Made by a program: the position numbers and the translations under genes | Notes under the pieces: generated by a model | What the model saw: only the letters and a program-made list of their open reading frames with translations | The model's database searches: none | What the model was told of the DNA's origin: nothing | Shown here: one piece after another, positions 21,243 to 62,254 of the stretch | How the letters are laid out: each line of letters begins with the position of its first letter | Numbering within the stretch: position 1 is the stretch's first letter | NCBI RefSeq assembly: GCF_009811555.1 | Contig: NZ_BLIN01000005.1 | Span: 4,721,501-4,785,500, forward strand | Reading direction: 5' to 3' | Source: Streptomyces caniferus | Lineage (GTDB): Bacteria > Actinomycetota > Actinomycetes > Streptomycetales > Streptomycetaceae | DNA length: 64,000 nucleotides

Positions 21243-21877
21243 CGCCACAGGGTGCGAGGCCCAGCCGGCACCGGCCCATGCGCTGGCCGGCGCCCCCGTG
21301 GCGGCCCCGTGGCGGTGTTCGTTCGGCGATTCCAACTGACCCGCCGGCCCCCCGGCACCGGCCCTCGCCGCCCCTGAACGGGCGCCCGGCACGCCTTCCG
21401 GGTCTCTGTCGGTCTCCTCGCCGCCACCGGCGTCGCCGCGGCTTTCCGCGCGACCGCACCTCGTTTTCCTGTACCGCGCGGAGGCGGGAGACCGCGGAGG
21501 GCGACGATCCCACCCGCGGGGCATCGAGTCGACGGCCGACTTCCCGTCAGTTGACGCGCAGTCGGAGCGCTTCCCCCTCCTGATGTCCCGAAAGGCGGGA
21601 AGGGGCACCCGCCGAGGTGTGGTTGCCGACGGGCCGGGGTGCGCCTGTCGGGGCAGCTCCCGGTCGCTCCGCCTCCAGAGGCCCGTATTCGGCCCTCTAT
21701 GACCCCTATTCGGAGAGTTACCACTCGCAACTATTTGAGAGGATTTATGAGAATATCCGTGTATGTCTGAATTTTCACGTAATTCCACTTGTTGGAGGCA
21801 GGTGAGCGTCGTAGCTTGGGAGTTGTCGAAGCCGGTAACGGTTCGACAACAAGGAAAAAACCAACGAGGAGGCGAGA
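21243..21877. other. Leader region of the small arginine-rich gene
   Basis: 635 bases without a credible long gene. The first ~450 bases are ordinary high-GC DNA. From about 21690 the GC content falls sharply (TTTGAGAGGATTTATGAGAA region), as in a promoter, and an inverted repeat at 21822–21850 precedes a strong ribosome-binding site. It probably holds the promoter of the 49-residue peptide gene. Confidence 0.5.
21822..21850 (+). promoter_or_regulatory. Stem-loop in the 5' leader of the small peptide gene
   Basis: GTTGTCGAA (21822–21830) pairs perfectly with TTCGACAAC (21842–21850) over an 11-base loop. An A-rich stretch follows, then GAGGAGG and the ATG at 21878. It could be an operator, an attenuator or an mRNA-stabilising hairpin. 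Confidence 0.6.
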
Positions 21878-22027
21878 ATGAGCTTCCGCAAGGTCTTCCC
21901 CAGAAGGCGCAATCGCCACAACGACGATTGGGACGACGACTACGGTTACGGCAGCGGCGGCCGCGGACGTCGGCGTCGCAGGAGGTTCGGTCGCGGCCGC
22001 AACTTCAGGCGTGGCTTCCGCTACTGA
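21878..22027 (+). CDS. Small arginine-rich basic peptide (49 residues)
   Basis: ATG at 21878 follows a near-ideal ribosome-binding site (ACGAGGAGGCGAGA), which is why I call a gene this short. The product has 17 Arg in 49 residues: a basic head (MSFRKVFPRRRNRH), an acidic-aromatic middle (NDDWDDDYGYGSGG), a run of six Arg (31–36), then FGRGRNFRRGFRY. No Cys and no signal peptide. It resembles RGG-type nucleic-acid-binding tails or a cationic antimicrobial peptide. It is 120 bases upstream of an ABC exporter on the same strand, so it could be exported or be a precursor; this is inference. I do not recognise a family. Confidence 0.7.
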   Translation: MSFRKVFPRRRNRHNDDWDDDYGYGSGGRGRRRRRRFGRGRNFRRGFRY

Positions 22028-22147
22028 CACACACCTCTGAGTTCGAGGCTGGCTCGCGTACGGCGCGGGTCCGCCTCGTCGTTTTAGGGGGCGGTGCCAC
22101 ACGGTCCCGCTCAACAACCCGACCAGCGACGAGATGACGTAGCGATC

Positions 22148-24163
22148 ATGCACCTGCGCAGCTCACGCCGGCGCGGAGAGCGCCCCAAGGCGTCGCCTCA
22201 AGAAGGCACGAAATCATCGCCCGTTGGAGAGGGGACACCCCTGGCGGACGATGCCGACGACAACTCCCCCGATTCACCGGCCGGTGCGCGGTCACAGCCG
22301 ACGCCGGCCCCGGACCCCGCCATGGACCGCGTGTTCCGCGGGCTCGTCGCGGACACGTCGATCCGTACCAGACGGGTGGGCTTCAAGGAGTCCGTGCGGC
22401 GCTTCTGGCCGCTGACCCGGGGCGACCGGCGCTGGATCCTTCTGATCTGCCTCACCGCCATCGTCGCCGCGGGCGCGGAGACCGTGGCCATCCTGCTGTT
22501 CGCCGAACTCACCGACAACGCCCTGCAGAAGGGCTCGGTCAGCGCCTTCTGGAGGCCCGCCGGGCTGTGGCTCGGCGTGGCCGTCGCCGGTGCGATCGTC
22601 GGATACCTGGGCAACTCGCTCGCCGCCTGGACGGCGGAACGGTTCGTGATGCGGCTACGCGCCCGGGTCTTCGACCATCTCCAGACGCTGCCGCCGCACT
22701 TCTTCCAGCGCAATCGCCGCGGAGACCTGGTCGAGCGGCTGACCGGCGACGTCGACGCCATCGAACAGCTCGTGGTCTCCGGCCTCGTCCAGGCGGCCAC
22801 GGCCGGATTCGGCGTCATCTTCTACGCCGGAGCCGCCCTCTGGCTGCGCTGGGACCTGGCGCTCGCCACCTTCGCCCTGGCCCCGCTGTTCTGGCTCGCC
22901 ACCACCCGCTTCACCGGCCGGGTCAAGGAGGTCTCCCGCCGGGAACGTGCGGCGGACGGCGCCATCACTTCGGTGGTCGAGGAAGGGCTGGTCAATGTCG
23001 TCCTCACCCAGGCGTACAACCGGCAGGGGGACGAACGGGAGCGGCTCCGTCGCGAGGCTCACAAGTGGCTGCGGGCGTCGGTCACCAGCGCCCGGCTCAA
23101 CGAGCTGTACGGGCAGGTGGTCGAGGTCCTCGAAACCTTCTGTGTCCTGGCGATCATCGGCCTGGGCGCATGGGAGATCGCCTCGGGCCGGATGACGCTG
23201 GGGCAGCTCCTGGCCTTCGCCGCGTTCGTCGGCTACCTCTACCCGCCGATCCGCGACCTCGGCCAGCTCGGTCTGACGGTCACCGAGGCGACCGCCGGCG
23301 CCGAACGTCTCCTGGAGATCCTCGACGCCCCGCCCGCCGTCACCGACCCGGACCCCGCGACCGTCGTCCCGGCGCCGAACCGCGCCATCGGCGCGGTGGA
23401 GGTGTGCGAGGTCGGCTTCCGCTATCCGGGCGGCGAACAAGAGGTCCTCCAGGACTTCTCGTTCACCGCGGTGCCCGGCGAACTGGTGGTCATCACCGGC
23501 CCCAGCGGCGCGGGCAAGTCGACCCTGGCCGCCCTGCTGCTGCGGTTCTACGACCCCGACACCGGCAGCGTCCGGCTGGACGGCATCCCCGTGAACCGGA
23601 TGCCGCTCGCCCAGCTCCGCCGGAACATCACCCTGCTGCCCCAGGACACCCTCGTCCTGCACGACACCGTGGAGGAGAACATCGCCTGCGGACGCGACGA
23701 CGCGACCCACTCCGATGTCATCGACGCCGCGCGGGCCGCCGACGCCGACGTGTTCATCGCCGCCCTCCCCGATGGCTACGACACGGTCATCGCCCCGGGC
23801 ACCTCCCGGCTCTCCGGCGGCCAGCTGCAGCGCATCGCGATCGCCCGTGCCATGCTGCGCAACGCCCCCGTCCTCATCCTCGACGAGCCCACCACCGGCC
23901 TGGACACCCTGGCCACCCAACGCATCCTCGGGCCGCTGCGCCGCCTCGCCGAAGGACGCACCACTCTCGTGATCACCCACGACCTGGACCTCGCCACGGA
24001 CGCCGACCGCATCCTGGTCCTGGACGAGGGACGCCTGGTGGAGTCGGGCGAACACGACCAACTCCTCGCCCAGAACGGCCTGTACGCCACCCTCTTCCAC
24101 GCCCACCCGCCGCCCCGCAACGGCTCGGTGCACCCCCTCGCCCGCCCGACTGGCAGCCACTGA
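22148..24163 (+). CDS. ABC transporter, fused permease/ATPase (exporter half-transporter)
   Basis: A 671-residue type IV exporter subunit that works as a dimer. After a ~75-residue hydrophilic head, the six-helix membrane domain spans residues ~90–375 (RWILLICLTAIVAAGAE…, VAVAGAIVGYLGNSLAAW, FGVIFYAGAALWL). The coupling segment is LPPHFFQRNRRGDLVERLTGD. The ATPase domain has Walker A GPSGAGKST (~451), LSGGQ (~556), Walker B VLILDEPTTGLD and the H-loop ITHD. The ATG at 22148 is chosen; a GTG at 22094 is in frame but overlaps the leader after the small peptide. No peptidase domain is present. Substrate unknown; the basic peptide gene just upstream is the obvious candidate. Confidence 0.92.
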   Translation: MHLRSSRRRGERPKASPQEGTKSSPVGEGTPLADDADDNSPDSPAGARSQPTPAPDPAMDRVFRGLVADTSIRTRRVGFKESVRRFWPLTRGDRRWILLICLTAIVAAGAETVAILLFAELTDNALQKGSVSAFWRPAGLWLGVAVAGAIVGYLGNSLAAWTAERFVMRLRARVFDHLQTLPPHFFQRNRRGDLVERLTGDVDAIEQLVVSGLVQAATAGFGVIFYAGAALWLRWDLALATFALAPLFWLATTRFTGRVKEVSRRERAADGAITSVVEEGLVNVVLTQAYNRQGDERERLRREAHKWLRASVTSARLNELYGQVVEVLETFCVLAIIGLGAWEIASGRMTLGQLLAFAAFVGYLYPPIRDLGQLGLTVTEATAGAERLLEILDAPPAVTDPDPATVVPAPNRAIGAVEVCEVGFRYPGGEQEVLQDFSFTAVPGELVVITGPSGAGKSTLAALLLRFYDPDTGSVRLDGIPVNRMPLAQLRRNITLLPQDTLVLHDTVEENIACGRDDATHSDVIDAARAADADVFIAALPDGYDTVIAPGTSRLSGGQLQRIAIARAMLRNAPVLILDEPTTGLDTLATQRILGPLRRLAEGRTTLVITHDLDLATDADRILVLDEGRLVESGEHDQLLAQNGLYATLFHAHPPPRNGSVHPLARPTGSH

Positions 24164-30167: not shown

Positions 30168-30255
30168 TGGCGGAGGATACGAGATTCGAACTCGTGAGGG
30201 GTTGCCCCCAACACGCTTTCCAAGCGTGCGCCCTAGGCCACTAGGCGAATCCTCC
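30168..30255 (-). tRNA. tRNA-Ser (anticodon GGA)
   Basis: Read on the minus strand: acceptor GGAGGAT pairs with ATCCTCC; D-arm GCCTAGTGGCCTAGGGC; anticodon stem ACGCT-TGGAAAGCGT with anticodon GGA; a long class II variable arm (GTTGGGGGCAACCCC); T-loop GTTCGAATC. Discriminator G at 30171, followed by an encoded CCA (30168–30170). The gene-poor island abuts its 3' side, a common integration site. Confidence 0.97.
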
Positions 30256-30383: not shown

Positions 30384-30478
30384 GTGCGCAGCCCCTCACG
30401 TGGCGCTATCTGACTGAACTCCCCCAGGGCCGGAAGGCAGCAAGGGTAGGTCGGCTCTGGCGGGTGCGTGGGGGGCGC
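30384..30478 (+). ncRNA. ffs: Signal recognition particle RNA (4.5S type)
   Basis: The conserved domain IV core CCAGGGCCGGAAGGCAGCAA is exact (GGAAGGCAGCA), with the closing strand GGTCGGCTCTGG. Outer helix strands GCGCAGCCCCTCACG and CGTGGGGGGCGC bracket it, which sets the approximate ends. It lies 53 bases before dnaX, a usual place in actinobacteria. The RNA binds Ffh and targets membrane and secreted proteins to SecYEG. Confidence 0.93.
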
Positions 30479-30530
30479 TTGCGTTTGCGGGGCCGGTCGG
30501 TTGTCAGTGCGGCCCGATATCGTCGTATGC

Positions 30531-62162: not shown

Positions 62163-62180
62163 TTACCTGTGTTCCTTCAG

Positions 62181-62254
62181 TCGGGGTGGCGGGATTTGAA
62201 CCCACGACCTCTTCGTCCCGAACGAAGCGCGCTGCCAAGCTGCGCTACACCCCG
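62181..62254 (-). tRNA. tRNA-Pro (anticodon CGG)
   Basis: Minus strand: acceptor CGGGGTG pairs with CACCCCG; D-arm GCGCAGCTTGGCAGCGC; anticodon stem CTTCG-TTCGGGA-CGAAG with anticodon CGG; T-loop GGTTCAAATCC; discriminator A at 62181. CCA is not encoded (the next bases read CTG). Confidence 0.97.

Follow-up and report, generated by a model that had tools for sequence, protein, structure and literature searches.

A short low-complexity peptide gene linked to an ABC exporter gene in Streptomyces caniferus and its relatives

Does the 49-residue open reading frame (ORF) that lies just ahead of an ATP-binding cassette (ABC) exporter gene in Streptomyces caniferus encode a real peptide, and what would such a peptide have to do with the exporter? 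The question is raised by a 64,000-nucleotide stretch of this genome (NCBI RefSeq assembly GCF_009811555.1, contig NZ_BLIN01000005.1, positions 4,721,501 to 4,785,500 of the forward strand), hereafter the window, in which positions are counted from the first letter. The frame at 21878-22027 on the forward strand translates to MSFRKVFPRRRNRHNDDWDDDYGYGSGGRGRRRRRRFGRGRNFRRGFRY, with a net charge of +13 and 17 Arg among its 49 residues, the 35% that the original prediction had counted. On comparative sequence evidence this frame is confirmed as a real gene, and its product is probably the cargo or partner of the exporter. With somewhat better than even confidence, we propose a two-gene module in which a low-complexity peptide would be carried out of the cell by a dedicated ABC exporter.

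Conservation of the peptide reading frame

The original prediction had named the absence of a conserved frame in related genomes as the result that would speak against the gene. The frame, its start and its ribosome-binding site are conserved across 16 loci (the window counted), where the promoter region, a 5' hairpin and a peptide beginning with MSF are also kept. A protein search of 295 congeneric genomes gave six matches, including the window, two true relatives (G294 and G090; G numbers are genomes and L numbers are loci) and three others (G055, G103, and G175; E values of 0.0016-0.0057, in frames of 193-3045 amino acids), which were set aside without reading their surroundings. The promoter/leader pattern GTCGTAGCNTNGGAGTTGTCG, with at most two mismatches, was matched in 24 of the 295 genomes; seven of these 24 loci, window included, had an MSF-starting peptide of the same kind, and the 17 that had none were dropped. 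A pattern lying one step further upstream was found in 16 stretches among 84,980 species, and the peptide was present in all nine Streptomyces stretches (S. natalensis, S. albospinus, S. lydicus, S. kronopolitis, S. chattanoogensis, S. sioyaensis, S. inhibens, S. sp. CT34, and S. sp. NBRC 110611), while neither of the two examined among the seven non-Streptomyces stretches carried it.

The ABC gene follows the peptide gene in 14 of the 15 relatives, and in the fifteenth (L048) the DNA ends about 380 bases past the peptide. The start is close to MSFRKVFPRRR among 13 Arg-type loci, and a Gly-rich form starting with MSFRVL occurs in S. albospinus, which shares an identical peptide with G191, and in S. 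sp. CT34; across the 16 loci, the tails pass from Arg-rich through RG repeats to Gly-rich. The ratio of amino-acid-changing to silent changes per site (pN/pS) over codons 4-11 was 0.33 for the Arg type (13 loci) and rose to 0.53 once the two Gly-type loci were included (15 loci). Comparison of start and tail gave 0.21 and 0.59 in the Arg type (n = 15), 0.48 and 0.71 in the Lys/Ala/Pro type (n = 35), and 0.31 and 0.52 in the Pro/Lys type (n = 10), pointing to a start more constrained than the tail in all three groups, which were picked by start motif, a choice that depresses pN at the start and makes the contrast stronger than it is otherwise. All four proline codons are in use at Pro8 of the Arg type, so it is the residue that is conserved and not the DNA.

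The window peptide matched no family in Pfam or NCBIfam, and four related peptides matched no NCBIfam model. Back-translated searches with the peptide in genome contigs and viral contigs gave no confirmed match.

Linkage of low-complexity peptides to an exporter family

An exporter search of 150 congeneric genomes gave matches at E <= 1e-150 in 40 of them. All 59 matches from this search and 30 of the 56 from a family search were fetched as loci, and two (L112 and L157) were excluded because they had too little upstream DNA. Each of the first 30 loci fetched, the window among them, had a short low-complexity peptide gene upstream of the exporter; paralogues of 44-48% identity, which were meant as a negative control, also had one, which in most cases is of a His/Asp/Gly type, for example MAIFSSLLPAKRRDRD... 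In Streptomycetaceae, a same-strand upstream peptide was recorded at 54 of 55 loci with ABC identity of at least 58% (exception L111) and at 27 of 28 loci with identity of 44-50% (exception L147), both counts being read by eye in several scans with changing rules. These upstream genes encode 36-83 amino acids of low complexity, with Arg/Gly, Lys/Ala/Pro, Pro/Lys or His/Asp/Gly tails. Under a fixed blind rule, a peptide was found upstream at 66 of 82 loci, on the opposite strand of these stretches at one of 82, and downstream at none of 56, and the single reverse-strand match is the real divergent member at L147 (Table 1). As a control, the DNA ahead of 20 other ABC exporters from the genome of the window was read, and no such peptide was recognised there; 13 of the 20 matches in this control start past query residue 116, so that the DNA searched was partly coding.

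The linkage was also approached from the side of the peptide. Profile A4, made from 27 peptides that were all ABC-linked, was run with 49 candidates scored per genome and gave 50 matches in 28 of the 150 genomes, all of them beside an exporter; 47 lie at most 900 nucleotides upstream, on the same strand, of listed exporter matches, and the remaining three form a tandem array in G141, just ahead of a further exporter (63% identity). No orphan peptide occurred among these 50 matches, and this lack of unlinked matches is the informative part of the result, the profile having been built from linked peptides. Of 8000 proteins scored from a set of 5.8 billion, 398 matched the same profile at E <= 0.01, and the named ones among the 120 matches listed are called "hypothetical protein" or "uncharacterized"; a His-type profile matched 38 proteins, of which the named ones are likewise hypothetical or uncharacterised. 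G033 and G084 each have several different modules within one genome. Tandem copies and near-identical species are not independent observations in any of these counts.

The exporter was found at E <= 1e-140 in 45 of 200 genomes, covering 9 of 17 genera, in a survey of the family, and at E <= 1e-115 in 15 of 246 genomes in a survey of the class. A low-complexity peptide lies upstream at nine of 12 newly fetched loci, or at 8 of 11 when only loci outside the family are counted; MPLKKILPPPPKPKRPRRPHPRPLPRKPSHG and MASTQFTQVGHQLGWGCRRRRRRRWCGGCRRRRWWGWGW are examples. Similar pairs are present in other actinomycete families; Nonomuraea gerenzanensis and a Streptomyces nigrescens plasmid appear to carry the pair too. 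L193 (G555) has two Trp/Asp/Tyr-rich peptide ORFs about 285 and 705 nucleotides upstream of the exporter match, and the nearer one, MRFFHHLHRWHGWRGGWDSWDDYDYCSWRWRDCDDEWDDDCDDWCD, is acidic, so positive charge is not universal. L187 has no peptide upstream and no DNA past the ABC match. The remaining two loci have candidates after the exporter, about 130 nucleotides past the match in L191 and convergent with it in L189; these are Trp/Arg/His-rich and Pro/Arg-rich, and they are only suggestive, since the background rate of such ORFs is about one per 20 kb.

The number of peptide copies per locus ranges from one to five, with tandem arrays at several loci; one G068 locus has four tandem copies plus a fifth. 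At L138, L139, and L143, a Pro/Lys-type copy stands ahead of two other copies before one exporter, so that one exporter is accompanied by two tail types; this third copy (in L138, MAFKAPAPLPKPKKKLLPPPP...) lies about 1040 nucleotides upstream of the exporter match. The predicted hairpin after the last copy has a median energy of -36.0 kcal/mol, compared with -20.6 for shuffled sequences (51 upper-tier loci), and falls below all 10 shuffles in 48 of the 51, while the best hairpin between tandem copies reaches only -4.4 to -16.3 kcal/mol (14 intervals). A strong hairpin is thus predicted only after the last copy.

To a large extent, tail type follows the exporter tree. Over all groups, tail class needs 23 changes on that tree, compared with a mean of 50.6 when shuffled (none of 200 shuffles as low), a figure that near-copies help, that leaves out 9 of 85 loci, and that uses classes set by composition cut-offs. 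The Gly/Arg and "other" classes cluster moderately, with 35 and 22 of 500 shuffles as low, respectively.

Over 95 peptides, the net charge runs from -8 to +15. The term "arginine-rich" therefore describes the window peptide and not the family, since the tails of its relatives are rich in Lys/Ala/Pro, Pro/Lys or His/Asp/Gly. The start is short and polar by inspection, and a loose pattern, M-[SAGNTP]-hydrophobic-x(1-3)-hydrophobic-x(1-2)-P, fits 82 of the 95, a list partly gathered with a similar pattern. The peptides are hydrophilic, with a median of 15% I/L/V/M/F/W/C (composition only), and 21 of the 95 contain Cys. Gly-Gly, Gly-Ala or Gly-Ser pairs occur in residues 10-30 of 17 of the 95.

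Features of the window locus and neighbouring genes

The features of the locus are collected in Table 1, together with the divergent peptide gene of L147 and the RNA genes of the window.

Table 1. Features of the peptide-exporter locus, the divergent peptide gene of L147, and RNA genes of the window
Feature	Position	Strand	Remarks
Upstream element GAATTTTCAC	21769-21778	+	Last base 10 nucleotides ahead of the -35-like hexamer; kept in relatives
Promoter-like TTGTTG (21789-21794), 17 nucleotides, TAGCTT (21812-21817)	21789-21817	+	Conserved in alignment A3
5' stem-loop near the predicted mRNA start	21822-21850	+	Folding; conserved among leaders
Ribosome-binding site AGGAGG	21867-21872	+	Read from the sequence; region conserved in alignment A3
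Peptide gene, 49 amino acids, low-complexity, Arg-rich	21878-22027	+	Start MSFRKVFPRRR, kept; tail variable
Predicted hairpin separating peptide and exporter genes, terminator- or 3'-stabiliser-like	22044-22078	+	-26.2 kcal/mol; shuffled mean -18.4
ABC exporter gene, 671 amino acids, ABC_membrane + ABC_tran	22148-24163	+	Pfam; probable partner of the peptide
L147 peptide gene, Pro/Lys type	L147:809-934	-	Own ribosome-binding site and own -32 kcal/mol hairpin; divergent from the exporter
tRNA-Ser(gga)	30168-30255	-	
Small signal recognition particle RNA	30387-30485	+	
tRNA-Pro(cgg)	62180-62254	-	

Most of what the original prediction had read around the peptide start was borne out. The AGGAGG sequence ends five bases ahead of the ATG, in line with the near-perfect ribosome-binding site claimed. 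The leader stem-loop also holds, a local hairpin being predicted in all 16 leaders, window included (-10.6 to -29.4 kcal/mol, computed with no shuffles); its position shifts somewhat and its sequence changes, with a U-A pair turned into A-U in S. lydicus, G137, and G194. Of the low-GC promoter-like region, the dip stands (G+C of 0.42 at 21700-21799, about 0.7 in the surroundings), and the hexamers and their spacing of 17-18 nucleotides are conserved in alignment A3, partly by construction, TTGTTG and TAGC being in the search pattern; a sigma-70 match was not obtained. A strict consensus scan of the peptide-gene region found no sigma-70 promoter and no U-tract terminator, so the promoter and hairpin claims rest on between-species conservation and folding. 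Rfam had no match in the region at the gathering score.

The GAATTTTCAC block is nearly invariant in the clade of the window, and we know of no regulator for it. It is present in loci found without requiring it (G294 and G090 by the protein search; G064, G137, and G191 by the downstream pattern), and G194 has the variant GAAATTTCAC; in the nine named Streptomyces loci it was demanded by the search pattern. Lys/Ala/Pro-type loci (L107, L139, and L073) share a different block, about AATGTTTTCC[GA]TGTCGAA, some 50-100 nucleotides before the first peptide, which may contain the promoter of that clade.

The two Pfam domains of the exporter, ABC_membrane and ABC_tran, were matched at E values of 3.3e-46 and 1.8e-32, respectively, and the Walker A, LSGGQ, and Walker B motifs are visible in its translation; no C39 peptidase domain was found in it by Pfam. 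The ATG at 22148 is common to the relatives, and a longer alternative begins with a GTG at 22094. Ahead of the first membrane helix, the translation contains a signature, FWPxT[RK]G, which was found strictly at 66 and loosely at 76 of 84 Streptomycetaceae loci and at none of 20 other ABC loci; of 14 far loci, only two have the strict and four the loose form.

An APC-family amino-acid permease gene follows the exporter gene on the same strand. The original prediction had noted both genes after the peptide, and both are present, but among the six related loci whose DNA reaches 2 kb or more past the ABC match, only two have the permease, which places it outside the conserved unit. In the neighbourhood of 23 wider loci, the exporter gene is the only gene common to all; the other most frequent clusters of neighbours resemble the antisense shadow of the exporter, and the remaining ones reach at most 10 of 23 loci, with mixed place and strand. 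No modifying enzyme, peptidase or immunity gene was common to the 23 loci.

Export, rival explanations and known systems

Export is the best reading of the pair because of the near-exclusive linkage, the matching diversification of tail and exporter, the tandem copies, a hairpin that would favour the peptide, and the divergent order in one locus. The peptide would be short, probably unfolded, of low complexity and without a classical leader, and the exporter would be a dedicated, probable homodimer that lets the whole peptide leave the cell uncleaved. The conserved start, roughly M-[SA]-[FIL]-x(2-3)-[LIV]-x-P, may serve as the recognition signal of the exporter. The hairpin would make peptide mRNA plentiful and exporter mRNA scarce, a pattern found in many bacteriocin operons. 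Once outside, the peptide might work by means of its charge or of side chains that bind metals, and an antimicrobial or envelope-binding action would be the likeliest; this is the weakest step, all three roles (antimicrobial, metal-binding, and envelope-binding) being guessed from composition. A wider proposal, which we hold tentatively and with less than even confidence, is that the family forms an unrecognised actinomycete secretion module, in which the exporters read this short start as a portable export tag and export disordered peptides whose tails are swapped among Arg/Gly, Lys/Ala/Pro, Pro/Lys, and His/Asp/Gly types, for competition, metal binding or envelope coating. Among the options of the original prediction, the exported cationic peptide is the best supported, by linkage across genera, tandem copies, shared phylogeny and the divergent locus, with export itself as the conjectural part.

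Several observations weigh against export. No peptide was found at L111, and outside the family the pair is upstream at only 8 of 11 loci. A match of charge between the exporter transmembrane domain and the peptide, seen in the raw data (r = -0.54), was gone after phylogenetic correction (r = -0.01), and the mixed Lys/Arg/His class shows no clustering on the exporter tree, all 500 of 500 shuffles being as low. Among solved structures, the closest in sequence belong for the most part to multidrug or lipid exporters and thus do not point to peptides in particular; among the sequences listed is the a-factor lipopeptide exporter. Moreover, the peptides are hydrophilic, in contrast to the folded bacteriocins that are known.

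The strongest rival, which we regard as unlikely, is that the peptide stays inside the cell and binds RNA, DNA, ribosomes or the exporter, while the exporter moves a drug or lipid. RNA binding, an option already raised in the original prediction, was neither supported nor contradicted by the comparison. Linkage by itself does not prove transport, the loss of the charge match fits this view, and the tails resemble RGG-like and histone-H1-tail-like segments, which are low-complexity types that bind nucleic acids. However, the pairing is kept although tails are strongly cationic at some loci and neutral or acidic, rich in His/Asp/Gly, at others, which is hard to fit to a fixed nucleic-acid target, and tandem copies and several modules per genome, as in G033 and G084, suggest a product rather than a subunit. 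Alternatively, the ORF could be a cis-acting leader peptide, as with antibiotic-induced transporters, in which slow translation of a poly-Arg, poly-Pro or poly-Lys frame governs how much transcription passes the hairpin and enters the exporter gene. Such sequences are hard to translate, and a small ORF with a terminator-like hairpin before an ABC gene has the layout of an attenuator, which fits at nearly all loci; the attenuator of BmrC/BmrD (PMC4191407) is one such case. Pairing of the upstream RNA with the 5' arm of the hairpin, however, did not exceed that of shuffled sequence at 51 loci (mean z +0.20; two loci in the lowest 5%), a sensor needs no tandem copies, and the free codon choice at Pro8 also speaks against a leader role. 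The clearest case against it is L147, whose divergent peptide gene with its own hairpin is not on the exporter mRNA; the two far relatives with candidate peptides after the exporter point the same way, if only suggestively. Given the tandem copies, the divergent locus and the lack of any sign of an antiterminator, the leader-peptide reading is weakened; a cis-acting role is disfavoured and appears improbable.

We consider it about equally improbable that the peptide is the precursor of a ribosomally synthesised and post-translationally modified peptide (RiPP), with the gene for the modifying enzyme at another place in the genome. The constant start and variable end recall a leader and core, and Cys is present in some of the peptides, but the shared neighbourhood holds no enzyme or peptidase gene, which had made the modified-peptide precursor of the original prediction less likely already; so varied a core would presumably demand one very promiscuous enzyme, and no NCBIfam model matched the five peptides tested, nor a Pfam family the window peptide. 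A chance ORF, open by accident in a GC-rich stretch, has some ground in the 82 ORFs of at least 40 amino acids that overlap 10 kb here, open frames being common in such DNA, and in the protein-database search with the window peptide alone, which returned no homologue. Against this, the frame, start and ribosome-binding site are kept in 16 loci with fewer amino-acid-changing than silent changes per site, and the exporter linkage and its negative controls would not be expected of an accident; this explanation is very improbable indeed.

If peptide export is true, an overlooked gene pair in antibiotic-producing bacteria would make a new class of secreted peptides, and the exporter, marked in Streptomycetaceae by FWPxT[RK]G, would be a handle for mining genomes for them. 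The pair would also offer a clean system for studying the choice of unfolded polypeptides by an ABC exporter and the reason why tail chemistry shifts fast while the partnership persists. Even if the peptides are intracellular, the tight link of low-complexity microproteins to one exporter family demands explanation. The literature covered, with most subscription journals outside its scope, held no description of the peptide-exporter pair, and, together with the lack of a Pfam or NCBIfam family, this agrees with the earlier suggestion that the peptide may be undescribed.

Systems in which a small peptide has an ABC exporter dedicated to it are known; we know of none whose peptides are leaderless-looking, of low complexity and interchangeable in composition. 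Among the closest are the leaderless bacteriocins that have dedicated ABC exporters (aureocin A53 and lacticin Q, for instance), which are folded, with hydrophobic helices; they are likewise short, mostly cationic peptides without an evident leader, encoded beside a transporter gene and sometimes by tandem structural genes. The present peptides, in contrast, are hydrophilic and of low complexity and include neutral and acidic members, their loci have no immunity gene in common, and, judged by composition, the peptides do not have the character of a folded amphipathic or hydrophobic helix. Lantibiotic and other bacteriocin operons have a hairpin after the structural gene, and the order of structural gene, hairpin and export gene is the same here, whereas the present loci have no shared modification enzyme or C39 peptidase domain. 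The Pro/Lys-type tails (MSFKKLAPLPPKPKSKQLPPPPKPKPKK... and MPLKKILPPPPKPKRPRRP...) are similar in make-up to proline-rich antimicrobial peptides such as apidaecin and Bac7, which are animal peptides; this is a likeness of composition with no homology claimed, and the window peptide is rich in Arg, Gly, and Asp instead of Pro. Leader-peptide attenuators (BmrC/BmrD and the ABCF leaders) likewise have a small ORF and a hairpin before an ABC gene, while the present loci differ in showing no sign of an antiterminator, in their tandem copies and one divergent case, and in the constrained peptide start. For the exporter itself, none of the best 25 of 202 NCBIfam models reached its cut-off, the best being MsbA (412.9 bits, compared with 602). 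The same domain make-up is found in MsbA, Sav1866, and P-glycoprotein, which gave the best curated and structural matches, and the present exporters differ from this type in forming a separate actinomycete clade that is tied to peptides, most of whose Streptomycetaceae members carry FWPxT[RK]G.

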